Shown here: positions 8,006-54,877 of the stretch, in pieces
How positions within the stretch are numbered: the first letter of the stretch is position 1
Layout: every line of letters starts with the position of its first letter
DNA from: Cloeon dipterum
Lineage: Eukaryota > Arthropoda > Insecta > Ephemeroptera > Baetidae
DNA length: 64,000 nt
NCBI RefSeq assembly: GCF_949628265.1
Contig: NC_088786.1
Location: 42,615,681-42,679,680 of the forward strand
Direction: 5' to 3'
Notes under the pieces: generated by a model
Told to the model about the DNA's origin: nothing
Database searches by the model: none
What the model saw: only the letters and a program-made list of their open reading frames with translations
Program-made: the position numbers and the translations under genes

Positions 8006-8523
8006 TTAAAGTACCGTAGTGCGTTTGCAGGAGGAATAATTGGGAGAGTAATCAAGCTCGACGATGATGAGTCCGACAACTGCAAGCAACGAAAGCCGGA
8101 AAATCACCAAGAGGAAGCAAAGTTCTTTCGCGGCCGGGTAGTCAGCAGGAGGAACGGTCGCCTGTGGGAATAAACATTTTGCATACACTGTGAAAATGAA
8201 TTTTGTTCGGAATACTAATTTTTTCATCCCTCTCTTCGTTTCTTAATATCCTGGAATGGTAATTTTAGACGATCGACCATGTTTTTCTTAGGTTAAAATT
8301 TAAGTATGCAATTTTGAGCCGATGAAACACTTCGTTTGATAACCTGAATAAATATTCGACCATTCTGAATCGACAGCCCTACTCATAAAACAATTACACA
8401 CTAAAAACTCACTTTTTTCTCATCAGACGAGGTGTTGACTTCGGTCGTGATGAGCACAACCAGCGACGCAACGAAGGAGAAGACCGCCATCGAGTAGAGC
8501 CCGATTGCAATAAATTTAGTCAT
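8006..8523 (-). CDS. Family M gene M1: 88-aa two-segment membrane protein
   Basis: Coding exons are 8,523-8,413 and 8,161-8,006. A non-coding 5' exon has its donor at 8,626 (AAAG|GTAGAT), and the acceptor before the start exon is at 8,544. Both introns are GT-AG and the coding junction is phase 0. Exon 1 gives 37 residues, with a membrane segment over about 5-26 (FIAIGLYSMAVFSFVASLVV) and a polar end TSSDEKK. Exon 2 gives 51 residues: ATVPPADYPAAKE, a second membrane segment, then a short tail ending KRTTVL. It is related to M2-M7 by the M..(I/V)xxGLYxMAxxxxVxSLxVL pattern. It is the only M locus where a second membrane exon can be assigned, so it may show the ancestral structure. Function is unknown. 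Confidence 0.6.
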
Positions 8524-8625
8524 CGTGTGTCGCGTTTCAGAAATCTATAAACAAGGAATAACCAAACAACAGCAATTTAGCTACATTTCGAGAGCGTGTC
8601 CGAGATTGTAAAATGAGAGATCTAC

Positions 8626-8800
8626 CTTTGAGAGGTTGGGGTGAGTGGAGAGCTGCGGAGACGACAGCAACACGGCAGTCTGGCAGCCGCGAAGGCGAAG
8701 AGTGAGCGACTTGTGAGAGGCGGCGGCCGGCCCTCCGATTGCCGCTCGCACGCACTCGCCAGTTCCAACTGCGTATGCGCCAAGGCAAAATCACAAATCA
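8626..8800 (-). other. Non-coding 5' exon and promoter region of M1
   Basis: The donor CAAAG|GTAGATC ends at 8,626. The sequence is GC-richer than its surroundings and has no conserved frame with a start codon leading into M1. The transcription start cannot be placed. Confidence 0.4.
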
Positions 8801-8859
8801 TTTCAATAAAGCGCGTAATGCGTTGTGTTCTGCAAATGATATCTTTTATTTGAATTTTT

Positions 8860-9760
8860 AAAGGCTTCTTTGTCGGAAGCTAGAAGAAGCAGTTTCTCAT
8901 TTCATTTTCAATCAGTTAAAGACATCAACCAAAAAAATTGCTCTCGCTCGTAGAAAATCAGTAATTAGACAGTTTTCTCAAATTGTCACAACAGTGTGCC
9001 GAACAATCATTAACTTTTCTGTACAGAAGCGAAGGGGCGCGAAAGAAAGAGCAAAAATGATCGTAGCACAAAAAGAGGGGTTAAAAATATTGTCTGAGCG
9101 GACCGGATGCGTGTATACACGCAGAGAGCGGTACGCACCACTTGTAACGGTTACCAAGACGCCAAAAGAGGCAGTTTAGAAAATCGATCGAGGCACGTGC
9201 AAAAGCAATTATTTCAGCATTAATTTTCAAACCAAATTTAAATCCGCGTTTGCAAAGGATGGTCTGAATTTGCCAAATTGACAGTCAAAAATCTCCAAAC
9301 GGTGCTTCAATTAGTCTAAATTTGAAATTAAAGGCCGGCTCTCTTGATCACACCGCAATCGATTAAACGCCTTTGGCAGTCATCCACAGCGCTGCATGAA
9401 AAGTTGAGTTATTCTCATTTGAACTCTATGTTTTTAATTAATTAAGCCATTTTAAGTTTGCCAGGAAAAGCCATAGAAAACGTCCTGCAAATTCACTTGC
9501 ACAATTTCTAGTTTCAATTTTCAATGAGCATGAAAAGAGGCTGATGATGTTTTCTAGGAAATCTTGGGCGGGCGGACGGGTTTGCAAAGCGAGAGAGTAA
9601 GCCTATTTAGAAACTATGCAGAGCTCATTTCTGCATAACAGAATGAAAATGCAGGCTTTCACGTTTGTTATTCTCATCACTACTCATTTTTCCGCATTCA
9701 CAGTTCAGGGAAATAATAAACGTGTCACGCATCTGAATTGGAATTCCCGTCGTATCATCT
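8860..9760. other. Non-coding stretch with a diverged copy of a shared promoter-proximal block
   Basis: About 9,470-9,720 aligns in pieces with 21,620-21,850, 35,610-35,700 and 38,580-38,720, including GAATGCGGAAAAATGAGT on the minus strand. Frames after that ATG differ between copies, so I read it as untranslated or regulatory sequence. Confidence 0.35.
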
Positions 9761-10668
9761 CTGTCAACTAATTTGTTCTGTACAATGTTTGAAATATGCA
9801 GTAGCGATAGGGATTCTTTATTTTATCTCTTGGATAAAACTGCCAACATTTATTTCGCACACAACAAATTGAGTTAACTAAAGCACGTTCTTGACTTTGC
9901 AAGCTTCTGAAACCAGCAAAACACGGGCAGTGTGCAAACAAACAAAGTGATAAAATAAATAATGCTGCCTGTGGGGAGAGGAGAGAGCTTCGGACGCGCA
10001 AAGAGCACAGATTCTCGCTGGGCAATATAATTATTCCACTTTCTGCCGACATTGCAACGCGCGCGGCGCAAATTTTATTCAAGGCGGCTCTCCCCCGCAT
10101 CCCCCATCAACTAATTGTTTGAAAGGCGACAAATTCGTTAGTGAATTTCGATTTGTGTACGGTTGGCTGCACTTTTTATCCAAGGGATTACGCATTTGGC
10201 TTGATTTAAATTTAATTAATCACTCGATGCATCACTACGGTGTTCATTTTTACCGCCTCCTCACAATTTCTCAATCCAATAAATATTTTCTTTGTAAAAA
10301 TCTAACAGGTGAATTTTAAATTTCAATCTTTAGGATCAAAATTTTCGCAGATTTTGAACAATTACGAAATTTCGACGCTCTAGGTCACATCAGGGTCGGG
10401 CCCTGAGGGTTGGCCGATCTAAGTTTCCTTTGGTCCGCCAAAGCAAATATTTGGAACAAGAAAGGAGAGAGAGAGAGCCTTAATCAATTATTGGAAGCTT
10501 ACATTTGCGGGGGAGAATAAGCGGCCGGCACCGTTGCCTAGATAAGAGCCCGATCGCACAACCAATATTTCGCAATCAGGCAAAATGAAATGAACTCTAG
10601 AAGTAATAAAAAGTGCAGCAAGAACGCGACAAAATGGATGCCATTTCGATTTATTCTTGATTTGTTAC

Positions 10669-10870
10669 CTGAGGAACAAGGTTCAGGTTGGCAGGCAAAA
10701 AATATCGCGTGGAAAAACGGGAAATCGGAACTCGACTGACGTGACGAGTGCATTTTGTGCTCCCTCTCACGCGCATTTGTTAATCCGCTTTAATGCGGCT
10801 GCATGTCGTTTGAAAAGCGGCAAAGGTTTTCATTCCGACCAACTGCACACGGAACCAATTAAATCTCCAA
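10669..10870 (-). other. Shared non-coding 5' exon ('N' block), copy 1
   Basis: It ends in the donor TTCCTCAG|GTAACAAATC at 10,669. The same exon end occurs at 21,923 and 39,948, and related upstream sequence (TGCAGTTGGTCGGAATCA and a GAGAGGGAGCAGAAA stretch) is found at about 35,820, 40,100 and 47,110. At 21.9 and 39.9 kb it sits upstream of coding genes (T-a and gene C). Here no convincing downstream coding exon was found; a possible one near 10,000-9,770 is weak. Confidence 0.45.
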
Positions 10871-11270: not shown

Positions 11271-11363
11271 TCACAGACAAAAAACAGTGGAGTAGAGCAC
11301 GGCGAGAGATCCGACGAAGAGCACGGATGGCGTCAGGTAGAGGAACACGACAACCAGTTCGCA
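11271..11363 (-). pseudogene. Family M copy M2, start codon lost
   Basis: The frame ELVVVFLYLTP...VGSLAVLYSTVFCL followed by a stop matches M4-M6 almost residue for residue, but the ATG and the intron acceptor upstream are replaced by AAAATTGCG. The matching 5' exon is preserved upstream with its donor at 11,435 (GTAAAT). As it stands, no initiation codon is available at the normal place, so this is probably a pseudogene. Confidence 0.6.
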
Positions 11364-14179: not shown

Positions 14180-14350
14180 TCTGCAAACAATTTTAAAAGT
14201 TGGACCCTGCATTTTTGTGTGTGTGAATGTTTAAAAAAGCGACTTGCGTGCGAGGTGGCTGGCGGATGCAGCGCGATGTGCGTGAGTCTGCGTGCTCCTG
14301 CTCCGTCCCGACGCCAACCCTTTGCTCACTGCTGCTGCCACTTTTAGAAA
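14180..14350 (-). pseudogene. Relic of family M: intron end and 5' exon without coding exon
   Basis: CTGCAAACAATTTTAAAAGT (14,182-14,201) is the complement of the M intron 3' end, and 14,260-14,350 matches the M 5' exon zone. The expected ATG exon to the left is absent. Confidence 0.45.
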
Positions 14351-15180: not shown

Positions 15181-15459
15181 CGTAAATATACACTCATATT
15201 TTTCTGTTATAGCTGTCACACCATTTTTTTCTAGGGTTGCCATCAAAACTGTATGTAACAGATCGCATATTGGTCTTGTTGGTTTTATTCAGCTGCAATA
15301 GAAAATAGTTGAAGTTTGCATGCGAGGGAAGCAGCATGAATTATTTCTTACTTGCTTGAACCGAAATTCATCCCCACATTTGCGCAATTTTTACAATATA
15401 CCATCGGTTGTTGAATTTCGTTGCGGAAAGGAAGTGGTACCTGGAACGGCGATTTTTAT

Positions 15460-16354
15460 TCAGTTTATCATACGGGTTTTCTGCATGGTCAATGCAATGC
15501 TCACCACGTATCCATAGTTGTTCTCCTGAAAACATAGGGAAATTAAAGAGCATCTGAAAAATTATTGATGCTTGCGCGACCAGAAATTATTAGATAAAGC
15601 TCTCCTCTAGTCAGAAGAATTTAAGCTAGTAATTATTCAAAAAGCCTACCTCGTCAGCAGGTGACGATGGCGGAGCCCTAACAATCTCCTCGTGGTAATT
15701 GCCGAGGTCTTGCAGCTCAACGATACTTTCTATAGTGACGACCAGACTGGCGCGACGCGCAGCTGTGGCGTCGGCCGGGGGAAAGTGCTTTCCGGTGGGC
15801 AAATGAACACACGTGCGTTAAGCAAAAAGAAGCGAGTCCCCTCCGACACTTCATATTTGTGTTACAGATTTAATTTTGTAAGTCGGAACTAAAAAATTAA
15901 ATTACTCGTGTCTCATCGAGGCCATCTTGGATCTGACCAGCCGGGAAATAATGCAAATGACGCTAATATTGCCCCCGCTGATTTCAAGGAAAATCCAGAC
16001 CTTTTAATCTTTCGAAAAAAAGCAAAACTTTTCCGGCGAGTGAGACAAATGAAACGCGTGTAACATATTTAATTTTAAATTGCACGCGCCAATATATAAG
16101 AAACAGTTATAAAACACTAAGACACGATTGCGTCTGAACAATTCATGTCATTTTAATATATTTAATTCGATCTGTAGGGAATTTAGTTGTGCTGTCTGAG
16201 TTAGCCAAAAGTGCGCGATATTAAAAAAAGACATTGACAGGGACCAACCAACCTGATCATAAATCTGGCAGCAGCGTGACAAAAGGTCCGGGAGCACAAC
16301 TACGATGAATAGAACTAGCACGAGGGCCCAATAAAATATCTCTAATTGCCCCAT
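15460..16354 (-). CDS. Gene A: 101-aa single-pass membrane protein
   Basis: Three coding exons are 16,354-16,253, 15,787-15,650 and 15,525-15,460; all junctions are phase 0 with GT-AG introns. The stop codon overlaps a poly(A) signal (TGAATAAA). Residues 1-34 hold an N-terminal membrane segment (about 6-24, FYWALVLVLFIVVVLPDLL) followed by RCCQ. Residues 35-80 are an Ala/Arg-rich then acidic region (VELQDLGNYHEEIVRAPPSS). Residues 81-101 end in QKTRMIN. The exon 2 acceptor (CCGGAAAG) has only a modest pyrimidine tract, so that boundary is less certain. A non-coding 5' exon lies at 17,110-17,245. It sits among the T/M genes and shares their plan, but I cannot align its sequence to them. Topology (tail in or out) and role are unknown. 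Confidence 0.6.
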
Positions 16355-19797: not shown

Positions 19798-20652
19798 TCA
19801 GGCTGTTTCTTCGTCGGCAGCCACGCGACGTCGGAAGCAACATGAATCGATCGTTATCATTATCACTACCACGAAAAAGGTGACGGGTGCGAGAAAAGTA
19901 AAAATGAAAAACAAGATTTTTTGCTGGTCTGCTGATATTCTAGCGTGTCTTTGGATGAAGGAAGCCTGCAACAATTGGATAAGACGCGTCTCAATCCATT
20001 CATTTCACACGCAATACATTTTTTTCGAACATACAGCAGAGTTTTTACTAAATTCAAATCTAACAAAACATCACGAAACGAATTCCTAAACGTAATAACA
20101 TAATTGTTAAAATTTGTGCGTTTGACCGTGGCGAAGCGAGACCAAATCATGCCGAAATGAACGATATTAAAAAATGACGTTGAATTCACACGACTGCTTT
20201 TCTGCATTGATAAAAATCCACCCTGGTTTTCTCCACACTTAACGCACAACCTTTCAAAAAGAAAATCATAAAATATTACGGATTGGTAGATTTAAAATCA
20301 AATAATATATCACAGAGTCGCGTCCATAAAACACTTTTGAGGGAGACTACTGGAAAAATAAAAAGTCCCGAGCAAATGTGTTCGCACGGAAGAAACGATT
20401 TTGTAAATTGCGCTTACCGCCAAGTCAGGAATAGTGCCATTGTTGACCGCGCGATGAGCCTTGAGTTTGGCGAGGCGGTGCTGAAAAATAGCAATACGTC
20501 AGCTTAATTATATGGTTTTATGAGTTTAAAAGAAGATCACGTACATTGGGATAAATTTGGGTTTTGATGACGAGGTGACAAAATCCGACGGTGACTACTG
20601 CAACGACCAGAGTCAAGACAGTGAAGAATGAGACGCATCTCAATAGACCCAT
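19798..20652 (-). CDS. Family T gene T-a: 112-aa two-segment membrane protein, intact
   Basis: Exons are 20,652-20,545 (36 codons), 20,480-20,418 (21) and 19,965-19,798 (55 plus stop); introns are 64 and 452 bases, GT-AG, both phase 0. Membrane segment 1 spans about residues 9-28 (FFTVLTLVVAVVTVGFCHLV). The loop exon HRLAKLKAHRAVNNGTIPDL is charged. Segment 2 lies at about 75-95, and the tail is basic then acidic (CCFRRRVAADEETA). An ATTAAA signal lies about 40 bases after the stop. The acceptor TTCTCGGTTTCAG precedes the start codon, and a likely non-coding first exon ends at 21,923. It is the most diverged intact T copy. The two membrane passes joined by a short loop suggest a hairpin topology. 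No known family is recognised. Confidence 0.68.
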
Positions 20653-22270: not shown

Positions 22271-22387
22271 TTTTTTTGAGGCGCGCGTTTCACAAGCAAA
22301 AACGGTCGCGTAGAACACAGCGAGAGATCCGACGTAGAGCACGAATGCCATCAGATAATAGAGGCTCAAGACTATCAGTTCGAACAT
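22271..22387 (-). CDS. Family M gene M3: first coding exon, 39 residues with one membrane segment
   Basis: The start exon follows the acceptor AATTGTTTGCAG (exon start 22,390, ATG at 22,387). It encodes MFELIVLSLYYLMAFVLYVG, continues to a charged end CETRASKK, then meets a possible donor AAAAAA|GTACAT in phase 0. The paralogues M4-M6 have six T instead of five after ACCG (coding strand), which shifts them to a stop at residue 32. M3 keeps the longer frame. A 3' exon like that of M1 was not found. If the donor is unused, the frame runs on to 22,112. A non-coding 5' exon ends at 22,507 (ATTG|GTGAGT). Product: a tiny membrane protein, function unknown. Confidence 0.5.
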
Positions 22388-24443: not shown

Positions 24444-24981
24444 TTATTCACTACTTATGATTTTCCAATATTTTGATGCCGCCGAATTAAGCAGGCTGAT
24501 TCTTACTCTGCAGACGCACAATATATTATATTTCACGTAACCTGCAAAAATCGTTACCGCCAAAAGCGTCCAGAAAAAAGAGACGACTGCGAGAGAAGCA
24601 GAAATGCTCATTAGGACTTGCTGCCAAGCTGATTGTGTTGCGAGTCGGCCGATGGAGGAAACCTGCAACAATTGAGAACATTTGCGGATAACACTTCTTT
24701 TCGTGTGCACCCCATCGTTCAAACAAACATTTTCAGGGAAAGAATAAGAAAGAATATTTTGTAACAACAACACACAACATAGTTTATAAAAGAATCACAT
24801 ACACAAGACAGTTTTATGATTCTATTTCATTATTGTTCATTTATTCTCCAACAAAAGAAATTATATTTTTTTATAACACGTACCATCGGATCATTTTGGG
24901 CGAGTAGCCAGGTGAGGTGACACGCTCCGATGGTGCCCATTGCAAGAATATTAAAGTGGCGCATTTCATTTTTGGACCCAT
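24444..24981 (-). pseudogene. Family T copy T-b, disrupted
   Basis: The start exon (24,981-24,894) is 88 bases, against 114 in T-e. An internal deletion removes most of the first membrane segment and shifts the frame. The loop exon is missing: sequence goes from the start exon's intron almost directly into the region before the last exon. The last exon (acceptor at 24,662) reads SSIGRLATQSAWQQVLMS as in T-d, but a 5-base insertion near its end (AATATA zone) changes the C-terminus to end at 24,444. The AATAAA signal is intact. The first-exon donor is still present at 25,442. Confidence 0.65.
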
Positions 24982-26540
24982 GGCTCGAAAGCGAAGCGGA
25001 AAATCTGGATTTCTGAAACCGAGACGCAACAAACGAATCAGATGACAAAACACAAACACACTCCTTCTCCGGCAAGAAATTGGATATCGACGTATTGACA
25101 TAGACTGTTCAAAAAGTTATATCCTGCGAAGTACATCATATTTCTTGCTGGGATACATAGCGAAAAAATTGCAAAAAAAAGAAAAAAATAATTTTATCAA
25201 TTACTAAATACTTTCAACTCACGGCAGCCCGTTGGGTCGCAATGTTAATGCATTCTCAGGAGTGAAACGCAATGTCAGAGATGATAACTTTTTGAAAAAA
25301 AAAAAATATTTGAAAATCTTGTCTGGGGCTTTCTATGCATTGCCTTTTTAAGGCAAATTATTCAGAATGAAAGATGCAATACAAATCAAAGAAAGATCTG
25401 CACAGTAAAAATAGAAGAAAAATTGTCAAATAGGTGAGAACCTGCGAAGTACGAGGGTAGCGCAGCGACGCCGTCCGTCCGTCCGTTGGGCAGGGATGTC
25501 GGCGGCACGAGACTATGAACGCGGATCGTGTTGGTGGGAAGCTCTCCTCGCAATCGATTAATAATTCTCATCTGCGAGTGCGTGCGCATAGTCCTTATTT
25601 CCACTCGGTTTTCTGTGTGCGTGCGCTACAAACTCGATTTCGTGGGTGGCACTTTTAAAACTCACTTTTTTATCGAAATTTCGACGAAAACACTTCATAT
25701 TTTTCTAGAAGTGCTATTTTAATCAGAAAAATTTGTCTTTCGCTCGACAAAAGTCTAAAAACACGTACAAGCATCTTTCGCTGCAGGAGTCGGCGTGAAT
25801 GCATGTCGTCGGATGAGATGAGTGAGCAGACAGGACACGTGGGGATGCGCGTCGCGCTGTTGTTGCCATCTGCAGGCCGGCAGGTGAACAAGCTATCGAT
25901 CGGTTTTTCCATCTCGAAAGCATGCGAGCCACGTGCTTACAATGGTTGTGATGCGAATAAACTTTAGAGAATATTACATACATACTACTTGAAAACTTTT
26001 TGCCGTTTTTGTTATGATGAAAACGCAGATAAAAAATCTTCCATGATTTATGCCACAGATCGAAACTTTGGTGATTGTTGACGCATATTTTAGGTACTTG
26101 AAAAGACAAAATTAACCAAACGCCAAATCCCCTATCGTATATACATTTGGTGTCAATTAGAGATTAGAGTGAATGAGACTCAAACAACTCAGTTGACGCT
26201 ATACGTTTATTCTCACTACTTTTTTTTCAATATGTTTTCAAGCTGGTTCGTAGTTTGTAGCCACAAGATATTCCAAAAAACTTGGATCAATTGCGATCAC
26301 GAAGATGTTGAGTGCGTGAAGCCAGAATGAATTAACATTTTTTGCTTCTCTGTTGATTGTGCCGCGTGTCTTTGGAAGAAGGAAGCCTGCAACAATCGAT
26401 TTATAGATCTTACATGAGTAAAAGCTGACAGGAAAAAATCTCGACAACAACCATTTTACGACTAGGCTTAAAACTCGCGTTGACTCAGTTAAATCGCTAT
26501 GGACAATATGGCTTGTTTTTTTTAATTATTCAGAAAGAAA

Positions 26541-26654
26541 TTATAGGAATAGAAAATTTACTTGAGTTACACGTGACTCGACTTTTTTATTAGGCACCCA
26601 GCACTTGAATAATTGAACTGTCGGCGTAGTGGCCACAGAGTCAGATGAAATTTC
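26541..26654 (-). other. Possible alternative terminal exon of T-c
   Basis: A strong acceptor TTGTTGTTGCAG at 26,655 is followed by a frame of 37 residues that is in phase with the T-c loop exon (EISSDSVATTPTVQLFKCWV and on). It contains AATAAA shortly downstream and has no membrane segment. It is not seen in the other T genes. Confidence 0.3.
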
Positions 26655-26904
26655 CTGCAACAACAATGTTTTATCCAGGAATTTGGTGCAATACATTAAT
26701 CTGTTTAGTGCTTGTGCATATTCCGTTAACGATCGTTCGCGAAAAAAAGCTCATCAAATATTAGCGCGTGCATAGCGAAATTTGGCGTTGGTTGATGCCA
26801 AAGCCCGCGGTGCTGAGTTACGCTAAAAAGTTTCACTCTTCGCACCGTGCGGTGTTCAATAATTGGATCTATTTATTTTTATTCAATGTAATGTGGTGGC
26901 CTTT

Positions 26905-27045
26905 ACAGGAAGCGGCGAGCGGCGGGGGCGGTGAGCGGCGGCGGGGTGGCCAACACTGGGGGCGGCTGCAGAAGAGGCGGCAAGCACCGGCGGAAGGGAG
27001 CGGTCGCACGGCGGCAGGCCTGCAGTGGAAAAGACAAAGTTTGTC
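26905..27045. other. Short GC-rich island
   Basis: About 140 bases rich in GCGGCG and GGCGGC within DNA otherwise AT-rich. It is open on both strands (Ala/Pro/Gly/Arg-rich) and bounded by splice-like CAG and GT motifs on either strand. It could be an untranslated exon or a CpG-like promoter. There is no paralogous copy in the window. Confidence 0.3.
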
Positions 27046-27239
27046 AAAATGCAGATTCGTTTTAAACGAACATCACAAATCAAATGTAAGGCAAGCAATC
27101 AGGGCCGCCTAATTGTAACACTTCAAAAATAATTTTCAGCATCATTTAGAATATTATCCATCAAACTCACAGCATTCTCCAAAAAGAAACCAAACACTGA
27201 GAAAACATCTCGTTGCGGGAGATAAAATATTATATGCTC

Positions 27240-27515
27240 TTGCACTCGTGGCACCCTCCTTAACGAGCTGAAAACCCAATGCGGTAGAGCCAATCGTGAA
27301 AAACTTATTTTGGAAATAAAAAAATATTTTCCAACGTTTCTACTGACTGAACCGATTTTGGTTTTCAGCACGACAAAAAAAACATATTTAATTAAGAATG
27401 CACGCAGTAGCTATATAGATTGGGTCTCAAATCACAGCGGAAAAGAGGCTTAAAACTGAATTTATTACGAAAGTATTCGGCGCTGCCATCGGCTAGCGAC
27501 TTTGAACACTAAAGA
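27240..27515. mobile_element. Diverged copy of the TTCGAAGCCGCC MITE (right part)
   Basis: The internal sequence (GATTTTGGTTTTCAGCAC, then CAAATCACAGCGGAA) aligns with the elements at 29,935-30,270 and 40,685-41,032. The inverted repeat is degraded to CGGCGCTGCCATCGGCTAGC. Confidence 0.4.
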
Positions 27516-28699
27516 CTTACACAACTGGTGTATTACCCATAGTAAAATGAGGAGGGATGGACATTAATGTATTATGTGACTGTTTTCCTGCAATTAACGC
27601 ATCTAACCTGGTTTGTTCCACAATTCATAAATCGGAAAAATGGTTTTTAATAATAACGAGTAGCTCTAAAATCTAAATCTAAAGAGTCGTGTCAAAAATA
27701 GGACACCACCCTGAAATCTGCGAGAAAAATACAAAAGTTGTAACGTCATATCCGAGCAAACTATGCCTCAGATTGAACGATTATGGTCTGCTTACCACCG
27801 AACCAGGACGAGCATGACGAGCTTTTAATTTGTCGAGCCGGTACTGAAAAATGAATAAATCAGACAAGACAGTTTCATGATTCCATCTCATTGTTTTACA
27901 ATATAGTTCTCAAACAGAAGAAATTTATACGTACGCTCGAATACTTTTGGCTTAATTGGAAGACGAAGAGACAACAAAGTCCGACGGCGACTATTGCAAC
28001 TAGCAGAGTCAAGACGGTGAGACACGTGACGCAATTCATTCGAGCCATGCCCGCAAACGCAAAGGGAGAAAGCCGGATTTCTGAAACCGAGAAGAAACAA
28101 ATAACAAATCAGATTTAGATACCGGCTGACTAAACGCAAACACGATCCTTCTCGAATGAAATTCTAGCTAACGAGTTGGAAACTCGACACATGTGACTAT
28201 AAATAGTAGTTTGACAGGGAAATGTCGATTCGCCAAAGAGAAACGATCAAATTCGACTCGACTCCTCACAAATTCATTGAACACGAGGCGCGGATTATGG
28301 AAATTTTTACTCCGAATTAACGAAAAAATAAGTTTTCCATGCATCATCTTTTTCCAGACAAATTGTTCAGATTAAAAGGTGTGAACGAGAGCAACAAGCA
28401 AAGGAACAAAAGATTTGAAAATTGCGCGCGGCACCTGCAAACAACGTCGGGCAGGGATGTTGGCACGAGACTAGCGCGGATCGTGTTGGCGGGCAGCTCT
28501 CGCGATGCAAAAGTTCGAATATGCCTGCGCAAACTCCTTATTTCTGTGTGCTTGCGCCGCAAACGCGAGTTCATGGGTGTAATTTTTAAAATGCATCGCG
28601 AGCGGCGGCTTAGTGTATACGTGGGAAAACGAACCAAAAATGTCTAACCGAAAATCGATCGTCAAAGGTGCCCAGATCAATGAAACGCCCAGATTCAGC

Positions 28700-29748: not shown

Positions 29749-29844
29749 TCACAGGCAAAAAACGGTCGCGTAGAGCACGGCAAGAGATCCGACGTAGAGC
29801 ACGAATGCCATCAGGTAGATGCCCACGACAACCAGTTCGGCCAT
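29749..29844 (-). CDS. Family M gene M4: 31-aa single-pass microprotein
   Basis: The frame MAELVVVGIYLMAFVLYVGS, continuing LAVLYATVFCL and a stop, lies in one exon after the shared acceptor AATTGTTTGCAG. A non-coding 5' exon has its donor at 30,339 (GTAAAT), with a MITE in the intron. Nearly the whole product is a membrane segment, as in known short membrane microproteins such as sarcolambans, but there is no sequence similarity I can claim. M5 and M6 stop at the same codon. M3 avoids it by one fewer T, so the short form could be either a selected product or the result of a shared frameshift. Confidence 0.5.
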   Translation of the reverse strand: MAELVVVGIYLMAFVLYVGSLAVLYATVFCL

Positions 29845-31963: not shown

Positions 31964-33345
31964 TTAAGCAGGCTGGTTCTTACTCTGCAGACGCACAAGG
32001 TATTTCACGTAACCTGGAAAAAGCGTTACCACCAAAAGTGTCCCGAGAAAGGAGACGACTGCGAGAGAAGCAGAAATGCTCATTAGGACTTGCTGCCAAG
32101 CTGATTGTGTTGCGAGTCGGCCGATGGAGGAAACCTGCAACAATTGAGAACATTTGCGGATAAAACTTCTTTTCGAGGGAAGAATAAAAAATGATATTTT
32201 TCAACAACAAAAGGCACACAAAACATAACATGCAACAGAATCAAATTTTTAAAAACCAAATTTGGGTCATCCTCGTCACAGGAAATAAAAAAAAACGTCG
32301 AAGACTTTTAACTTTCGGAGGATCGCCAGTAAACGCAACAATTTTTCAGAAAATATCAAAATCTTTTTTCTGTCTACTCTATTGATTATCCCAGGAAAAA
32401 CTGTTCAGTGCGCTATGCCGACTTTTGAAACCAACGTCCGCCTTCGACTTGTCTAAATTTGGAATAAGTATCGCAGTAGTTTGTCACTTTATTTTCAATT
32501 AATCGAACCATGCGCGTGTTGCCTGCTCGGCGGACACAGCAACAGCAGTGTTAATTAAAATCTCAAGTAGAGTAATTATTCAGAGACATATTTTGCATTT
32601 ATTAGCCAGCTCGTTAGCTCGCCATCAGCTCCGGAAAAACGCTATTTCTGTAAATGGTATTGTTCGTTACGTGTGAGTGATTTTTCCTCTTGGATAAACT
32701 TTGCCGCGAAATTATCTTTTCAGGAATTAATTGCGTAATTGACGATCATGCTTGGGCGGATCATGCATATTTGCAAAGCTGAAAACCGGCGAAAAGTGAT
32801 TATCAAATCTGTTTGATAAAACGCCGACATTGTTTTCAGCAATTTAATTCTAACTTCATGAGGGTTATCTTGAAAGTTTGGTTTTGTCGCACGCAGCCGA
32901 GTTTGTACCAAAGTAGCTTTAAAATAGAAGCTATCACATAATTGTGTCCGAAAAAAAATAAATGAATCAAACACTTTGAGGCGACCGCTGCAATCAAAGT
33001 TGTAACGACATATCTGAGCAAACTACATAAAGATGAAAAAAATATGAGTTGCTTACCACCAAGCAGTCGGGATCAGTAGTTTTGTTGACTGCACAATCAG
33101 CATCAGCTTCAAGTTTGCCGAGCTTAGGCTAAAAGGAGTAGACAAAAAAGTTTTATCATTTTCATTTCATTATTGTGCATTTATTATAACACCAAAAGAA
33201 ATGATAATTTTTAGAGAACACGTACCATCGGATCATTTTGGGTGATTTGCGAGATGAGATGACACACTCCGATGGTGGCCCCAGCAACGGCCAGAGCATA
33301 GACATAGGTGATTATGAATGCGGCGCATTTCATTTTGGGACCCAT
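31964..33345 (-). CDS. Family T gene T-d: 120-aa two-segment membrane protein, intact
   Basis: Exons are 33,345-33,226 (40 codons), 33,128-33,057 (24) and 32,134-31,964 (56 plus stop), with phase-0 GT-AG introns of 97 and 922 bases. Segment 1 includes FIITYVYALAVAGATIGVCH. The loop exon PKLGKLEADADCAVNKTTDP carries Asn-Lys-Thr, a possible N-glycosylation site if lumenal. Exon 3 begins SSIGRLATQSAWQQVLMS, followed by segment 2 (SLAVVSFLGTLLVVTLF) and a basic tail ending QSKNQPA. An AATAAA signal follows. The 5' non-coding exon ends at 33,829, and the acceptor before ATG is TTCAGAAATCCAG. It is very similar to T-e; together with M4 they form one T-T-M unit. Function unknown. Confidence 0.68.
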
Positions 33346-36289: not shown

Positions 36290-37630
36290 TTAAGCAGGCT
36301 GGTTCTTACTCTGCAGACGCACAAGGTATTTCACGTAACCTGGAAAAAGCGTTACCACCAAAAGTGTCCCGAGGAAGGAGACGACTGCGAGAGAAGCAGA
36401 AATGCTCATTAGGACTTGCTGCAACGCTGATTGTGTTGCGAGTCGGCGGATGGAGTAAACCTGCAACAATTGAGAACATTTTGAAAAACTTTTTTATTCA
36501 CAAACACGTAACACACAATTCCCATCGTTCAAACAAACATTTTCAGCGGCAGGATAAGAAAGAATGTTTTCCAACTACAACACACGACATTTAACATTTT
36601 TTTAGATAATTTCAACATCTTGTCTATTGGTTTTTCCAGGAATAACTGTTCAGTGCGCTATATGTGCCGCTTTTTGAAACCAACACACACGCCTACGACT
36701 TCTCTAAACATGGAAGGAGCATCGCAGCAGTCTGGCCCGTATTTTCAATTAATCCTCATCCAGCAACCATGCGCGTGTTGCCGGCTCGGCGGACACAGCA
36801 ACAGCAGTGTTAATTCAAAGCTCAAGCGGAGTAATTATTCAGCAGATATATTGCTTTTATTAGCCAGCTCGTTAGCTCGCCATCAGCTCCGGAAAAACGC
36901 TATTTCTGTAAATGGTATTGTTCGCTACGCGTGAGTGATTTTTCCTCTTGGATAAACTTTGTCGCGGAATTATCTTTTCAGGAATTAGTTGCGTATTTGA
37001 CGATCATGCTTAGGCGTATTCCAAGTTTGAAAAGTGCGTGGCTTGTGACAGTTATCAAATCTCTTTGATAAAACGCCGACATTGTTTTTTTTAGAAATTC
37101 AATACTATAATGAGGTTGGTCTTGAAAGATTTTTTCTATTGCACGCAGCCATTGTACCAATACAATATTCAATGGTCGGACTTGGCCTGAGACACAACAT
37201 GAATAAATTCCTAACAAAATATAAAAATACCGAGCTTTAAAATAAAATGTATCACAGAGTCGTGTCAAAAATAAAAATAAAAAATAAATAAATGAAACAC
37301 TTTGGGGCGATCAGTGCAATCAAAGTTGTAACGACATTTCTAGATGAAATATGATTTGCTTACCACCCAGCGGTCGAGGTCTGTAGCATTTTTGACTGCG
37401 CAATCAGCTTTGATTTTTGCGAGCTGGGGCTGAAAAAAAATACAAAAGACAGTTTTATGATTCTATCTCATTATTTTACATTTGTTCTCAAACAATATAT
37501 TGAAAAGAGCAAGTACCATCGGATCATTTTGGGCGAGTTGACAGGTGAGATGACACACTCCGACGGTGACCACAGCAATGGACAGGGCATATAAGAATAT
37601 TAATGTGGCGCATTTCATTTTGGGACCCAT
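36290..37630 (-). CDS. Family T gene T-e: 116-aa two-segment membrane protein, intact
   Basis: Exons are 37,630-37,517 (38 codons), 37,429-37,364 (22) and 36,460-36,290 (56 plus stop); introns of 87 and 903 bases, phase 0. The start reads MGPKMKCATLIFLYALSIAV, with the first membrane segment at about 8-28. The loop exon PQLAKIKADCAVKNATDLDR has an Asn-Ala-Thr sequon. The last exon is nearly identical to T-d's in the membrane segment and tail. The poly(A) signal AATAAA lies about 40 bases after the stop. The non-coding first exon has its donor at 38,133. Within intron 2 a frame ending SMIVKYATNS is also open in T-d, but the exon leading to it is not conserved. Confidence 0.7.
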
Positions 37631-38347
37631 GGCTCGAAAGCGAAGCGGGAAAGCTGGATTTCTGAAACCAAGAAGAAACCAACAAATCAGATTTAGATAC
37701 CGGCTGGCAAAAACAAACATTAACGCATTCCCGCAAGAAACGGTTATCCGCGTATTGACAGAAACTGTTCAAAAGTACATCTTTTGGATGTCCTGAAGGA
37801 AGTCGAATTTCTTTGCTGGTTTACACAGCGAAATTTGCCAATAAGAAAAGATTATTCTATTAAAAACTTAATAATTTCAACACTTTGTGGTTCGAATTGT
37901 TAACGGAAGGAGAGTCAAAGCAAAAGGAGTTTTTTTCTGAGTAGTTATTGTGGATCGAGTACTGGACTGGCTGCCCAATGTCAGAGACAAACACTTATTG
38001 CAAAAAAATTACTGGAGCTTTTTATGTTATTTCCTTTTTTAAGGCAAATTATCAATAGTGAAAGATGGAATAAAAAACAAAGAAACATCTGCGCAGTAAA
38101 AATAGGAGAAACTCTGGAAAATAGGTCAGAACCTGCAAAATATGAGGGAAGCAGCGACTCCGTCCGTCCGACCGTCCGTCCGTCCGTCGGGCAGGGATGT
38201 CGGCACAAGACTGAGCGCGCATCGTGTTGGCGGGCAATAGATTAATAATTCTCATTTGCGAGTGCGTGCGCATAGAGTCCCTATTCCCAATCGGTTTTCT
38301 GTGCGTGCGCAACAAACTCGCGAGTTCGTGGCAGGGATTTTTACAAT

Positions 38348-39524
38348 TTATCGCCGACCGAAGTGCACATATGAGTAAAATGCTCCGAAATTGTTTTCTT
38401 TCCGTATTTTCTCAGCTCTGGACAGGTGCCAGTCGCAATCTTGGATATTTCTCAAAAGTGCATTGACTTCCTTCCGGACCTGAGTGTCATCGAATATTTT
38501 GCAGGCTAGAAGGACACGCAGGACGATTGCCTCCATGTCGGACGCTCGAGAACCTACCTAAGTTGACGTGTTGCGAAGCGAGAGAGTAAATAAGTCTGCA
38601 TAGAAACTGTGCAGAGCTCATTTGCATAACAGAATGAGCAATTGAGCATGATGCTTTCACGTTTGCCACCGAGCTTCTTTTCAGCACAACTCATTTTTCC
38701 GCATTCAGAGTTCAGGTAAAAAAATGTGACACACAATCTGGATTGAAATCATCTCTGTCGACTAATTTGTTTGTTAGAATATTTTAAATAAACAGTAAAT
38801 ATACATTAGTATAGTGACACAGATGCTTTAAAATGCTTCGCACTTTGCAATCAAATAATTTGATGACATCAGTAATGTTGGAAAGAATGGAAGTATGTTT
38901 TACTACCGACTATTTTGTAAATAAGTGAGAATAAACATCTTTTAATGCCGGAAAAGGTGACGTTTAAACTTTCACCTACATAACTTTTCTACTAAATCCA
39001 AAGTTGCGTTTAAAATAAAAAAGTTTTACGATGTATAGCGAGAATTTTACATTGCAGATATCTCAACTTGGACAAAAAAATCTCTCTTGCGGATAATAAT
39101 TTAGCTCGCTTCACAATAATAAAATCTATAATCAATGCATTAATAAACAGATGCAACTCTATACTTTCAAAATAATTTACTCACCATCTGCGGCTCTGGA
39201 ATAGTACAATCGAGGAAATTCTTTGAAATTGGAAACATAAACAATTAACTATCAATGTTTCAAAATAACCTACCCTCATAATTTTATTGCAGTTTCGGCA
39301 AAAGGGGTTAGGAGTTTGGGTGGTGGTCGTAGGCCTCACTTTGCTCGTAGTATAGTTGTCTTTTTTATTGTTGATTTTGTGGAAGATCTTGCGCACTGAA
39401 TCACTGGATTTTTGAATGTATTAACTATAAATTTAAGATATTTGGTCAAACCAGTGACAATGAGAAGCACGAAAAGAATTATTCTGAAGGCTAGAAGTGC
39501 CATTTCACTAAACACGGACTGCAT
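38348..39524 (-). CDS. Gene C: 146-aa putative membrane protein, four coding exons
   Basis: Proposed exons are 39,524-39,452, 39,395-39,274, 39,220-39,185 and 38,557-38,348. Introns are 56, 53 and 627 bases; the first junction is phase 1, the others phase 0. All have GT-AG ends, including a strong GTGAGT after 39,185. The N-terminus MQSVFSEMALLAFRIILFVL is a membrane segment followed by a basic stretch, then TTTTQTPNPFCRNCNKI with a CxxC, then a helical C-terminal part (DTQVRKEVNALLRNIQD). A non-coding first exon probably ends at 39,948. The 56-base first intron is the weakest link: without it the frame stops after 62 residues. The last 12 or so codons overlap sequence duplicated from T gene 5' regions, so the true end may differ. 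Confidence 0.5.
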
Positions 39525-40498: not shown

Positions 40499-40594
40499 TC
40501 ACAGGCAAAAAACGGTCGCGTAGAGCACGGCGAGAGACCCGACGTAGAGCACGAATGCCATCAGGTAGAGGCCAACGACAACCAGTTCGGCCAT
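40499..40594 (-). CDS. Family M gene M5: 31-aa single-pass microprotein
   Basis: MAELVVVGLYLMAFVLYVGS then LAVLYATVFCL and a stop; it differs from M4 by one residue (Ile to Leu at position 9). The acceptor and 5' UTR are the same, and the 5' exon donor is at 41,101. It is part of a duplicated block of about 1.75 kb shared with M4, including the intronic MITE. Retention of an identical short frame in two copies is suggestive, but the copies are too similar to be a strong test of selection. Confidence 0.5.
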   Translation of the reverse strand: MAELVVVGLYLMAFVLYVGSLAVLYATVFCL

Positions 40595-43640: not shown

Positions 43641-43769
43641 CGAGATTAAATATGTACATATATGTGCTGACGCGGGGCAACGGAACGACTGAACTGAGAG
43701 CGTTGGTGTGAAAAATCCCAATCGTCACATTTGCAGTGAATGAGACTCAAACAATCTAGTTGACGCTTT

Positions 43770-43870
43770 TTTTATTCGCTTCTCAGCAGACACAAGATAT
43801 TCCAAGAATCTTGGACGAATCGTTATCACCAAAATAGTGACGAAAAAGAAATAATCTGATTAATTGGCTT
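43770..43870 (-). pseudogene. Fragment of a family T last exon (T-f)
   Basis: The sequence encodes FFFVTILVITIRPRFLEYLV, matching the second membrane segment and tail of T-h (GTILAVVIRPSHLEYLVSAD), then AATAAA. No acceptor, loop exon or start exon is found upstream, so only the 3' end remains. Confidence 0.6.
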
Positions 43871-45560: not shown

Positions 45561-45572
45561 CCTTATACCTGA

Positions 45573-45903
45573 TCAACAGGTGTCAGGTGTCGGTGGAAGA
45601 GCCGTGGTGCTCCACGCCGACTCATCGCCAGCATCCTCGAGTCCGTGTTCAGGAAACTAAAATAAAATGGAATCAGATTCACTCGTTTCTTTAGTTTATA
45701 GATAAAGATAAAAAACATATTTAAATGTAGGCAAAGTCATTAGTAATTCGGGATTGGTATCTCTATCGCAGTGGCGATTAGTCGCTGCGAAAACTAACCT
45801 TCGAGGACTTGTGCCCCAGGCCACTTAAGAAGTAGGGAAGCCCGACCAAGAGTCCCAAAATAACGAAAATCATGACGCAGTAGATTATCGGGTTCTCCAT
45901 CAT
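45573..45903 (-). CDS. Gene B: 62-aa single-pass membrane protein
   Basis: Exons are 45,903-45,799 (35 codons) and 45,656-45,573 (27 plus stop), joined in phase 0 across a 142-base GT-AG intron (AAG|GTTAGT, TTTTAG). Residues 6-27 form a membrane segment (IYCVMIFVILGLLVGLPYFL). The tail is acidic and Ser/Thr/Pro-rich, with ESAWSTTALPPTPDTC at its end. The frame is open upstream of the first ATG to the acceptor at 45,947 (TTACTTCCAG), so an additional upstream coding exon in phase 1 is possible, in which case this would be the C-terminus of a larger type I membrane protein. An N-block-like sequence lies near 47,000. Confidence 0.5.
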
Positions 45904-47579: not shown

Positions 47580-47675
47580 TCACGTGCAAAAAACGGTCGC
47601 GTAGAGCACAGCAAGAGATCCGAAGAAGAGCACGCATGCCATCAGGTAGAGGCCCAAGGTAATCAGTTCGACCAT
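47580..47675 (-). CDS. Family M gene M6: 31-aa single-pass microprotein
   Basis: MVELITLGLYLMACVLFFGS then LAVLYATVFCT and a stop. It differs from M4 at nine positions yet keeps the length, the hydrophobic character and the same stop position. The acceptor before it is TTTTAAAATTGTTTGCAG. The 5' exon donor is at 47,788 (GTGAGT). Because M6 is more diverged than M4/M5, its intact short frame is the better hint that a 31-residue product is real. It lies downstream of T-g and T-h, completing a T-T-M unit. Confidence 0.52.
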   Translation of the reverse strand: MVELITLGLYLMACVLFFGSLAVLYATVFCT

Positions 47676-47787
47676 TTTTCTGCAAACAATTTTAAAAGTT
47701 GATTCTCTGAACCGGACTGCAATCGAGCATATTTGCATTAATTGGACCATGCAATTTGGACGAGTATATGTTTAAAAAGTGACTCAC

Positions 47788-50543: not shown

Positions 50544-51464
50544 TTAGACTCGTTCTTCATCGTTTGAAGCCACAAGACATTTGCAGAAACTTGGATCAAT
50601 CGCGATCACGATCGCAAAGCCGAAGAAGATGATGAGTGCGAGAGAAACCAAAATGAAAATTAAGTAATGTTGCTTGTCTATTGATTGTGCCGCGTGTCTT
50701 TGGAACACGGAAGCCTGCAACAATCGAGTTAGACCTTATTTGAGTCAATCTGAATAAGAAAAAGCTCGTCAACAACAAAGTCACGACTAGGATAAAACTT
50801 CTCATAGCGCGATGATACGGTTAAAACGTGTTGCAAAAAAATCCATGTCAAAGTTTCCCGCCCAAAAATGACATAGTACGAAGTAAAGCTGCTTTTTCAT
50901 TATTTTAGAGCCTAGTTTGTTCCGTAGATGGATGGGCTACTAAGCCCGAAAAAACATCAAGCACATAAACGAATAGTTAAAATAGTTCTTTCCAAGACAA
51001 AATACAAAATCATGCTGAAATCAACCAAATTAAATTGACGGATTGAAAATAACGAGTCAAATGCTAAAAGGCGTGTCTAGAAGACACTTTGAGAGTTGAC
51101 CACTGGAACCTGCCCGCGAGAAAAATTAAAAAGTTGTATGGACATTACCGAGCAAACTATACTACAGATTAAACGAATATGATCTGCTTACCAGCGAGCC
51201 AGGACTGGCATAATTCACCGCACGATGAACTTTAAATTTGTCGACCTGGTAAAGAGTAAAAATCAGACAAGAAAGTTTTAACATCATTCTATCTCAATAT
51301 ATTACGTTTGTTCTCAAAACGAAATAAATTAATTTCTTAAAATCACGCACCCTCGGATCTTTTTGGGTGGATTGGAAGACGAGGAGACAAACCAATCCGA
51401 TTGTGACTAATGCAACGACCAGAGTCAAGACGGTGAGACATGTGACGCATCTCATTCGAGCCAT
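50544..51464 (-). CDS. Family T gene T-g: 112-aa two-segment membrane protein, intact
   Basis: Exons are 51,464-51,351 (38 codons), 51,245-51,192 (18) and 50,714-50,544 (56 plus stop); introns 105 and 477 bases, phase 0, GT-AG. The start MARMRCVTCLTVLTLVVALV leads a first membrane segment to about residue 30. The loop is short (VDKFKVHRAVNYASPGSL) because the acceptor has moved inward relative to T-h. Exon 3 reads ASVFQRHAAQSIDKQ, then the second membrane segment (about 74-96), then a Cys-containing tail (FCKCLVASNDEERV). Polyadenylation signal ATTAAA. The 5' non-coding exon ends at 51,859. T-g and T-c form one subtype (MARM.. start, ASxFQRHAAQS last exon); T-d, T-e and T-h the other. Confidence 0.7.
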
Positions 51465-52424
51465 GGCCGCAAACGCAAACGTGCAAAGCTGGATTTCTGA
51501 AACCGAGAAGAAAGAATAGATGATTAAACACACAATTCTCTCGAATTAAATTCAACTATCTATATGAGTAGGCAACTCGACACATGCTACTGTAAATATA
51601 GTTTTCTGAGGAACTCATGGAAATGTAATTTCACCGAAGAGAAACTATCAAACTCCTATCAACACTAGCCGGATGATGAAAAATTGTGCTCGGAAATAAC
51701 GTATTGGAACAAAAAATGTTTTGCAAACCTTTACTAGAGCTTTCCATGCGTCACCTGTTTCCTGTTTCAAGGCAAATTATTCAGCTTGAAAGCTGTAGAC
51801 GAGAGCAACAAACATAGAAACATGTGCACAGACAAACGATTTGAAAAGTGCTCAGCACCTGCAATCAACGATGGAAGCGCCGGCGTCCGTCGGGCCGGGA
51901 TGTTGGCACGAGAATAGCGCGGATCGTGTCGGTGGGCAGCGCGCGATTGAATAGTATGCGTGCGCGCAAAGTCCAATCTGCTTTTCTGTGTGCATGCGCC
52001 ACAAACTCGAATTCGTGGGTGGCATTTTTAACATTCATCACCAAGCGTAAGTGCTGAAGCGAGTCCTCAAATGTGAACCAATTGTTTTTGCCGAAAATTG
52101 GTCGTCAAAAGTGCCATTTAAAATCTAATTATTTTTCCATGTTAATTATTAAAGCGCCAAAATTCCAGCGATTTGTAGTGTATCAGCAAAAATCATGCAG
52201 TCGGGAACTCTGTGCAGCATATTCAAATTCGGCTCTTTTTTAATAATATGCACACATTACCAAGGGACCCGAGCCATGCAAATGTATATCTATTTTTAAT
52301 CATTTTTCTCTTCCGAAGAGCGAAATATGTGTGATCTAATTTTGCAGGCAAACCAGTTGCTTAAGTTTGTCTTTGGAAGAATCAAAATCACTTCTTGTTG
52401 AAAAAAACGAGAGTAATATTTTGT

Positions 52425-52810
52425 TTATCAAAAGTTCCATGTTCTACTTAAAGGATAAAAGGAAAACCACATGGCGGACCAACACAATTTATTTGCGTCA
52501 GAACAATCACTCGTGCGAGCACTTGTCGAGAATCGCATACCGACATTGCGTAATGCACTCTTGAACACTAAAAGTGCACGTCGACCCTCTGGCGAACTTT
52601 GGCACAAAGCAGAGCAGAATGTCGCTAGGTGCAGGTGAGCGAGAAGCCTCAAAATTTGCTCTTGATGAAATTATAACTTTCTCATTAACACCTATTGAAA
52701 TTGCGAAGCCGCCGCGCGAGGAGAGTGAACAAGCGCATTGTCACGCTGCTGACCGCCAGCGAGCGGGAAAATGAAAAGTAATTGACCTATTTTCGTCAAA
52801 TGGCGAGTTG
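52425..52810. repeat. 400-bp duplicated block, copy 2, with a 51-codon plus-strand frame
   Basis: Second copy of 43,240-43,640; the 51-codon frame is 52,619-52,774. In both places the block lies between a family T gene end and another gene's upstream region. Confidence 0.55.
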
Positions 52811-53262
52811 TGTGTGGCCTCGCCGGTCGTCAGCAACCGGTCCCAACTCTGAGAATTCGCATTTCCTTTTTCCGTTTGTTGCTACACTAGCTGATTCCTC
52901 TCGTTGCCTTTTTTACTAACAAAGGATTAAAATATTATCAATAAATTTTAGTAGTTTTGTTATTGAATGGACCAGCAAAATATTATTAATGTCTCGAGAG
53001 TGTTAAATGCCTCCATTTGAGGACCGTCAATCGTTTCTTTTGTCATTGCTACATTTCCGATTAATAAAAATTGAAACATTATGTGAAGCGAAGTTTCCTT
53101 ACCTCCTATAAAATTCGCTAACAATTCGTGGGAAAAAAACCAAACCACGCGTATTAATTCGGTGGCATTTGGAGTGAATGAAACTCAATAAATCTTGGAC
53201 GCTACTTTTTTATTCACTAAATTCTCCAATATGTTTCGATGCCGCCGAATTCAGACTGGTTC

Positions 53263-54127
53263 TTAGTCAGCAGACACAAGATATTCCAAGTGACTTGGAC
53301 GAATCACCACCGCCAGAATAGTCCCGAAAAAGGAGACGACTGAGAGAGAAGCAAAAATGATATATACGACTTCTTTCAATGTTGGTTGCGTTGCGAGTCG
53401 TCGGATGGAAACCTGCAACAAATGAGAGCATTCGGATGAAACTTCTTTCCTAGATCACCCCATTTATTTTAAAACCAACACAAACGCGGAACGCACATTT
53501 AGGGATTTTCCCACCGTTCAAGGGGCAGAATGAGAGAGAATTTATTTCAACAACAAACACATCAATCTGTTTGATTTTTAAAAACCAACATATTAGGGTC
53601 AACTCGTCACGTTAATTCTAATATTTCTTTTAACTCTCGGAGGTCTGCCAGTAGGCTCTTTACTGTGGAACAAACATTTTTTTCCTGCCTTCTCTAAAGA
53701 TTTTCCAGGAAAAAATGTCCAGTGCCTACTACGAATTTTAATAAAATCAATTTGGCAGTAGCACGTAAAAAACACTAGGGTGGCCACGGGAATCTTTGCG
53801 AAAAATAGTTTTAACGACATTTCCGAGGAAACAAATTGATTTTCTTACCGCCCTGTCGGGATTAGCAGCATTGTTGACTGCGCGATCGTGATCGGCTTCA
53901 AATTTGTCGAGCTGGTGCTGAAAAAAGTATTCAAGACAGTTTTATGATTCTCTCTCATTAGTTTTTGTTTGTTCTCAAACAAAAGTTATCAATTTATATA
54001 GAACACGTGCCATCGGATCATCTAGGCTGGATTGGGAGATGTGGTGATAGTAAAATCCGATGGTGACCACAGCAACGGACAGAGTATACAAGATTATGAA
54101 TGCGGCGCATTTCATTTTGGGACCCAT
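53263..54127 (-). CDS. Family T gene T-h: 111-aa two-segment membrane protein
   Basis: Exons are 54,127-54,011 (39 codons), 53,917-53,849 (23) and 53,412-53,263 (49 plus stop). The start reads MGPKMKCAAFIILYTLSVAV. The loop exon HQLDKFEADHDRAVNNAANP is the fullest in the family. Exon 3 (SIRRLATQPTLKEV, then a membrane segment and IRPSHLEYLVSAD) is shorter at the tail than in T-d/T-e. The first intron starts with GC instead of GT (CCGATG|GCACGT), where T-b, T-d and T-e have GTACGT or GTACTT. GC-AG introns are functional in animals, but the context is not the classic AG|GCAAGT, so splicing may be weak. AATAAA follows the stop. 5' exon donor at 54,579. Confidence 0.55.
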
Positions 54128-54811
54128 GGCTCGAAAGCGAAGCGGGAAAGCTGGATTTCTGAAACCGAGAAGAAAGAAACAAACCAGAATTAGACTCTTT
54201 CTCGAATGAAACCTTGACACACCCCGGCAAAAAAATGGGATATTCGCGTATTGACAGACTGTTCAAAGATATCCTGAAGGAAATCTAATTTGTTGCTGGG
54301 ATAAAAACCATCGCGGCAATGTAAAATTACCAACAAGAAACGAACTTGATACGCATTGTTAGGACATTCTCAGGAGTATCAAAGCAAAGTGAGTTATTTG
54401 CCGAGTAGTTAGGGCATCGAATACTGGCTGCCAATTGTCAGAGATGACAACTTATCGCAACAAAAAAATATTAGAAAATTTTGACTGGAGCTTTCTAAGC
54501 ATTTCCTTTTTCGAGGAAAATTATTCAGAATGAAAGATGCACACCAAAGCAATAAAAAAGAAAGAAAATTTTGAAAACCTGCAAAGTACGAGGGAAGCAG
54601 CGACACCGCCGTCCGTCCGTCTGACAGGAATGTTGGCAGAGGACTGATTGTGAGCGAGGGTAGTGTAGGTGGGCAGCTTCGCAATTGAATAATAATTCCC
54701 ATCTGCGAGTGCGTACGCTTAGTTCCGATTTCCGCTGTTTTTCTGTGCTTGCGCCACAAACTCTTATTCGTGGGAGGCATTTTTAAAATTCATTGCCATT
54801 TATAACGAGTC

Positions 54812-54877
54812 CTAAAATGTCCCAGAGTAGAGCGCGAATGCCATCAGGTAGAGGCCAATGATAACCAGTTCGGCCAT
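54812..54877 (-). pseudogene. Family M copy M7, truncated and split from its 5' part by a transposon
   Basis: MAELVIIGLYLMAFALY matches M5, then the sequence switches to a T-gene upstream block and reads SGTF and a stop. The start codon is preceded by only CTGCA, AG (the target duplication) and then the transposon end. The intron acceptor part TCTGCAAACAATTTTAAAAG reappears at 63,966 on the far side of the element, so before insertion this copy had the normal M acceptor. Confidence 0.75.

Follow-up and report, generated by a model that had tools for sequence, protein, structure and literature searches.

Gene content of the window

A 64,000-nucleotide stretch of the Cloeon dipterum genome (RefSeq assembly GCF_949628265.1, contig NC_088786.1; C1:42615681-42679680), hereafter the window, lies within what appears to be a lineage-specific cluster in which short, spliced genes encoding small membrane proteins have been duplicated in tandem. 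The genes fall into the groups T, A, B and C, accompanied by very short M frames, and all members found within the window lie on the minus strand (Table 1). A preliminary description, made from the window sequence, had reported these frames as spliced small membrane-protein genes occurring in tandem paralogues; the frames were recovered where it had placed them, and this part of the description held.

The T genes share one coding layout, namely an exon with a signal-anchor-like helix (exon 2), a short middle exon (exon 3) and a last exon with a second helix (exon 4), separated by phase-0 introns. An intron in the 5' untranslated region (5'UTR) precedes these exons; its acceptor context is near-identical in 11 of the cluster's 12 open T genes and is lost in T4. 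A loose pattern matched likely 5'UTR-exon donors for T2-T6 and found none for T1 and T7. Both introns of the coding part are in phase 0 in the 12 open T genes (five in the window) and in the three A genes, with GT donors at 29 of 30 sites (GC in T1) and AG acceptors at 30 of 30. In T13, the 3' splice site of exon 3 merges into a long CAG repeat, which makes the exon start ambiguous but keeps the frame. An AATAAA or ATTAAA signal lies 26-49 nt past the stop in all five open T genes of the window. The fit of phases, splice sites and poly(A) signals asserted in the preliminary description is thus borne out for T, and that of phases and splice sites also for A; the two junctions it singled out, 20,545/20,480 and 51,351/51,245, coincide exactly with the exon 2/exon 3 borders of T7 and T2, respectively.

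Both T and A proteins begin with a short or basic N end, followed by a helix, a glycosylatable loop, a second helix and a basic or cysteine-rich C end. Under the positive-inside rule the two ends are expected to be cytosolic, and the proteins are predicted to be two-helix hairpins with the ends inside and the glycosylatable loop outside. The last acceptor is purine-rich in A2 and A3 (TAAAG and AAAAG, respectively). The second intron of A2 contains a long insertion (1510 bases vs 251 in A1) with an inverted sequence pair inside, as seen by eye, possibly a small mobile element.

Where seven M loci had been proposed, the window holds six loci resembling open reading frames (ORFs; 54877, 47675, 40594, 29844, 22387 and 11360) and, by eye, two remnants near 14200 and 6640; they are candidate coding frames, with an omega (defined below) that does not differ from 1. 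An A-M profile link (E 1.3e-6, 90.6%; a single-pair E-value) makes kinship between M and exon 2 of A likely, and M may have arisen from A as a single-helix form. Whether the 31-residue M frame is translated is an even call. Several M loci are followed by a repeated block, recognised by eye at about 47200-47000, 40170-39950, 22100-21940 and 10880-10670, with a donor-like end, CCTCAG/GTAACAAATC, at three of the four places. This block may serve as the 5' exon of a different transcript, the 62-residue ORF at 39524 (D) being one candidate; no paralogue of D was found in the DNA examined.

B and C proteins consist of a helix followed by a cysteine-rich or basic juxtamembrane segment and a tail, and the last B intron is in phase 2. 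The B and C profiles align across the helix and an APPxSPxD end (E 1e-4, 58%; again a single-pair E-value), so that the two groups are likely related to each other, while no profile link was found for A-T, B-T or B-A. In six B proteins, 40 of 122 alignment columns are invariant, including PPSSPAD and a CxxC pair. Both B and C are predicted to be single-pass proteins with a cytosolic tail, which in B is conserved.

Table 1. Cluster members and associated frames in the window (window coordinates; exons in order of transcription)
Feature	Position	Strand	Details
T1	53263..54127	-	exons 54011-54127, 53849-53917, 53263-53412; 111 residues; donor of first coding exon GC
T2	50544..51464	-	exons 51351-51464, 51192-51245, 50544-50714; 112 residues; possible 5'UTR-exon donor near 51858
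T3	36290..37630	-	exons 37517-37630, 37364-37429, 36290-36460; 116 residues
T4	31964..33345	-	exons 33226-33345, 33057-33128, 31964-32134; 120 residues; 5'UTR intron acceptor CTG, not CAG
T5	26238..28048	-	broken; frameshift in exon 4
T6	24490..24981	-	broken; frameshift in first coding exon; exon 3 not found
T7	19798..20652	-	exons 20545-20652, 20418-20480, 19798-19965; 112 residues
T exon-4 remnant	43764..43847	-	
A	7902..8523	-	exons 8413-8523, 8015-8161, 7902-7949; 101 residues; two hydrophobic segments
B	15289..16354	-	exons 16253-16354 (transmembrane), 15650-15787, 15505-15525, 15352-15440, last from 15292 with stop; 117 residues
C	45573..45903	-	exons 45799-45903 (transmembrane), 45573-45656; 62 residues
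M	54812..54877	-	shortened copy fused to T-like upstream region
M	47580..47675	-	31-residue ORF
M	40499..40594	-	31-residue ORF
M	29749..29844	-	31-residue ORF
M variant	22271..22387	-	frame passes usual stop; 39 codons to possible donor
M	11271..11360	-	copy without ATG, broken
D	39336..39524	-	62-residue ORF with one hydrophobic segment; candidate coding frame

Extent of the cluster and copy numbers

The genome's own sequence (190,111,064 bases in 10 contigs) was searched with T2, T3, A1, M, B (transmembrane exon and tail) and two C queries, and the matches were confined to C1:42,425,845-42,695,443. Because the search scores only the top candidates from a permissive initial screen, the locus counts are lower bounds, and distant members are possible elsewhere. 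The cluster measures about 270 kb (C1:42.426-42.695 Mb), some four times the length of the window, and occupies both strands, where the preliminary description had placed its members on the minus strand.

At least 19 T loci were counted, 8 in the window and 11 outside it, and 12 of them (T1-T4, T7-T10, T12-T14 and T17) have an open spliced frame. The tail of T16 is frameshifted, and T5, T6, T15, T18, the exon-4 remnant and T11, which has no exon 4 in the next 3 kb, are also broken or partial. At least eight T loci had first been reported, and eight are present in the window, of which T5, T6 and the remnant at 43.8 kb are broken. Among 12 M loci, 7 retain the 31-codon frame and stop, 2 run on and 3 are broken. 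A, B and C, previously taken for singletons, proved to have 3, 9 and 4 loci, respectively. All three A loci are open; the B tail is present at eight of the nine transmembrane exons, seven of nine loci read from the first exon through the CxxC exon, and seven are open spliced frames.

On the plus strand at 42.478-42.511 Mb, the order T, M, B, A mirrors the minus-strand order of the window, and the mirrored stretches are alike (16/643 differences in the T7/T10 flank and 38/717 between Bw and B24). A large inverted duplication within the cluster is therefore likely.

Evidence that the frames are coding

The frames of T, A and B very probably belong to real, translated genes. For T, this reading is supported by the open frames, the indel pattern, hydropathy and glycosylation sequons and not by conserved residues, because site models show almost no constrained T sites (see below). 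The open T frames exceed neutral expectation: when T was evolved neutrally along a tree built from 10 open genes, a mean of 1.0-1.5 of the 10 tips was stop-free, and eight or more stop-free tips were never reached in 1000 runs with each of three root sequences. These 10 genes had been preselected as open, and a fairer contrast is 12 of 19 loci against about one in ten expected. The best 19-residue hydropathy averaged 2.49 in the first T helix, where the simulations (with stops scored as zero) gave 1.6-2.0, and 2.61 in the second, where they gave 1.8-2.2.

In pairwise alignments within four groups of close copies, 17 of 17 indels in exons and 21 of 93 in introns were multiples of three, in a count that omits A3, T2, T14, T17 and those introns whose lengths differ greatly between the two copies; the exon figure is helped by the choice of open frames, and pairs share events. 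Indel density was 4.5 per kb in exons and 14.3 per kb in introns. Between T7 and T10, no gap columns occurred in 339 coding bases, against 44 in the introns and 3' flank, and the exons diverged more (20/339) than the flank (16/643). An N-glycosylation sequon is present in the loop of 9 of 12 T proteins, compared with 2.3 expected on shuffling, and after the first helix in all three A proteins.

These results bear directly on whether the frames are merely decaying repeats, that is, untranslated relics spread by segmental duplication. Such decay would agree with the scarcity of constrained T sites and a dN/dS near 1, with seven of the 19 T loci and three of the 12 M loci being broken or partial, and with the lost acceptor of T4 and the GC donor of T1. 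It would leave unexplained the stop-free frames, the in-frame indels, the retained hydropathy and sequons, the ungapped coding bases of T7/T10, the invariant B columns, and a B tail in which dN is below dS in 13 of 15 pairs by the NG86 method; we consider it unlikely. Taken together with the open frames and the further signals above, a dN/dS around or over 1 is read as that of fast-changing coding genes and not of non-coding sequence.

Selection and exchange of exons

For the 12 open T genes, model M0 gave a ratio of nonsynonymous to synonymous substitution rates (dN/dS, omega) of 1.34 with F3x4 codon frequencies (twice the log-likelihood difference, 2dlnL, 5.95) and of 1.27 with equal and F1x4 frequencies (2dlnL 4.05 and 3.82, respectively). 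By exon, exon 2 (omega 1.27 under F3x4) and exon 3 (0.85) did not differ from 1, and exon 4 reached 1.76, 1.56 and 1.57 under the three frequency models, with 2dlnL against 1 of 10.2, 6.3 and 6.4, respectively. The three A sequences gave 2.37, 2.67 and 2.60 (2dlnL 4.1, 5.1 and 4.9). Model M2a improved on M1a by 14.1, 7.9 and 8.1 for T and by 14.5, 11.6 and 12.1 for B, whose mean omega was 1.07-1.13. The T fits excluded the seven broken or partial loci, and T10 and T17 were also excluded from the simulation and the initial T fits, leaving 10 of 12 open genes; the B fits omitted B26 (protein identical to B5) and B24 (tail lost), the B tail fits B25, the C fit C3, and the M fit 5 of 12 loci. The preliminary description would have counted a dN/dS near 1 throughout the T copies as refuting its reading; the overall T values of 1.27-1.34 came close to that outcome, and exon 4 stood above 1 under the three codon-frequency models.

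Exon and intron histories differ between T copies. T3 and T12 differ at 12/903 positions in intron 3 and at 18/171 in exon 4, and the reverse was found for T3 and T4 (156/811 and 5/171, respectively); exons have been swapped between copies, probably by gene conversion. The 45 bases upstream of the T start (e.g., 54128-54172 and 37631-37675) show 1-4 differences per 44-45 bases in nine T pairs.

Several results weigh against diversifying selection on translated genes. The open copies were picked before the tests, and exon swapping distorts single-tree fits. The excess of T omega over 1 is modest, with the 2dlnL of 3.82 just missing the 5% level; the constrained class of M1a comprises 4-7% of T sites, and none is called constrained at 0.95. 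For the B transmembrane exon, omega varies with the frequency model (2.18, 1.32 and 1.70), and dN is about equal to dS in NG86 pairwise comparisons. By maximum likelihood, neither the B tail (0.95-0.97) nor C (0.74) nor M (0.82) differs from 1. Sequence just upstream of the T start (45 bases) is better preserved than the coding exons in most pairs (1/45 vs 22/114 in exon 2 for T1/T3), a pattern that the reading preferred here leaves unexplained.

Much of this would also be expected if the genes code but evolve almost neutrally, as a redundant multigene family under relaxed constraint and gene conversion with no arms race. This main alternative, which we regard as a serious possibility though not a probable one, fits the mean omega close to 1 for T, B, C and M, the near absence of constrained T sites, the 7 broken or partial T loci, the pairwise result for the B transmembrane exon and the swapping of exons among paralogues. 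It fits poorly with an omega above 1 for T exon 4 and for A under all three frequency models, with the advantage of M2a over M1a for both B and T under the same models, and with twelve T frames still open across a deep tree. Diversifying selection together with gene conversion is, in our judgement, a better reading than relaxed constraint, albeit not a certain one.

Comparison with known families

None of the scanned proteins, which comprised two of the 12 open T proteins, two of the three A proteins, six B, four C and one M, scored above the cut-off of any Pfam family, in agreement with the preliminary description, which had recognised no named family. The M protein matched no Pfam family at E up to 1, where the filters may miss so short a query. 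Rfam gave no hits in the window at gathering scores. Sequence searches for PDB relatives of B yielded a best E of 1.1 with one protein and 0.048 with a profile, both judged to be chance. The nearest Pfam misses were not consistent across paralogues, involving one of the two A proteins scanned for a viral p17 family and one B protein each for FAM163 and Commissureless.

The two B misses raise the question of a known family diverged beyond recognition, such as Commissureless, FAM163 or another single-pass adaptor. Commissureless is a single-pass protein, and FAM163 is small and single-pass with a cysteine-rich juxtamembrane segment; the layout of B (transmembrane helix, cysteine-rich juxtamembrane segment and tail) resembles that of both. 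The scores themselves, 12.4 bits (E 0.19) against a cut-off of 27 for Commissureless (PF15957) and 14.1 bits (E 0.064) against 28.3 for FAM163 (PF15069), are far below the curated cut-offs, each was obtained with a different one of six B proteins, and no convincing PDB relative of B was found by sequence; both candidates were rejected, and such an origin seems improbable. In one paper, Commissureless is described as a membrane protein of insects whose cytosolic domain is functional (PMC12101832).

Capture of viral membrane genes would agree with the match of A3 to the large-DNA-virus p17 model (PF25667; E 3e-5, 24.5 bits against a cut-off of 27). A1, however, had no match even at E 10, the genes contain introns, and when viral contigs were searched with the alignments of B, A and T, 53, 36 and 71 pattern matches were returned, respectively, none of which was confirmed as a relative. 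The p17 assignment was rejected for the A1 and A3 proteins scanned, and a viral origin is very improbable.

Micropeptides of the sarcolipin, phospholamban and sarcolamban type have one helix, and M is similar to them in length and in its single helix but differs in its kinship with A exon 2. IFITM proteins are small membrane proteins, and the vertebrate IFITM (CD225) cluster is the nearest working analogue. One study describes lineage-specific duplication, many pseudogenes and positive selection on some branches in the IFITM cluster (PMC3499546). The two loci are alike in their clustered small membrane proteins, duplication, broken copies and a positive-selection signal, which is modest here. 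They differ in topology and host group, and Pfam scans of two T proteins (of 12 open) and two A proteins (of three) gave no CD225 row at E up to 10 or 1; membership in the IFITM family was rejected on sequence, and an antiviral role here is hypothetical.

No description of the cluster was found in the titles or abstract openings of the open-access papers searched. Fast-evolving tandem families are known, but several tiny spliced membrane families at one locus were not seen in that literature. No known family was matched, and uncharacterised homologues may already be listed in wider protein databases.

Neighbouring sequence

A 705-residue ORF at window positions 58679-60796 (minus strand) has a sub-threshold DUF1258 match (E 4e-7, 30.2 vs 33.1 bits) and is probably a transposase-like mobile-element gene. 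Downstream, pieces of an SH2-adaptor-like gene gave a weak SH2 match (E 0.0097, below cut-off); a similar but broken stretch seen by eye at window positions 1-2500 is possibly a partial duplicate of this gene. A GC-rich 213-base unit occurs in three tandem copies at 62669-63299 of the window. Near the start of C1 (C1:340243-476075), ATGATTGGTTAA repeats occur at satellite-typical spacings. In keeping with an insect origin, the genome as a whole has five matches above the curated cut-off for 7tm_6, an odorant-receptor family restricted to insects; 0 of 14 control genomes had such matches, a contrast of little weight if the controls are not animals.

Possible role of the cluster

We favour an account of the locus as a set of membrane microprotein genes engaged in genetic conflict, with a probability of roughly 0.5. 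The cluster would expand by tandem and inverted duplication, and its copies would exchange exons. The proteins would reside in surface or endosomal membranes and would be selected to keep changing by a partner that itself changes, which could be a pathogen's entry or membrane proteins or else a partner in mating or kinship. Their mode of action may be like that of vertebrate IFITM-type membrane restriction factors. Membrane residence, a changing partner and an immune or reproductive role are less certain than the predicted topology and glycosylation.

A more specific version of the conflict account appears doubtful. Here, one locus would hold several unrelated or barely related families (the T and A hairpins, single-pass B and C and perhaps the 31-residue M) whose transmembrane helices, and not a large ectodomain, form the diversifying surface in an arms race within the bilayer. 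Their members might assemble into mixed complexes in which a cytosolic adaptor tail is conserved. Selection on the helices is kept as a secondary case because the omega of 2.18 for B exon 1 is weakened by the other frequency models and by NG86.

Short spliced genes readily escape annotation, and entire fast-evolving loci may go unseen. If the proteins are made, the locus would hold unnamed families of membrane microproteins that show signs of diversifying selection, would be a place to seek immune, reproductive and kin-recognition factors, and would test whether transmembrane helices can be a diversifying surface.

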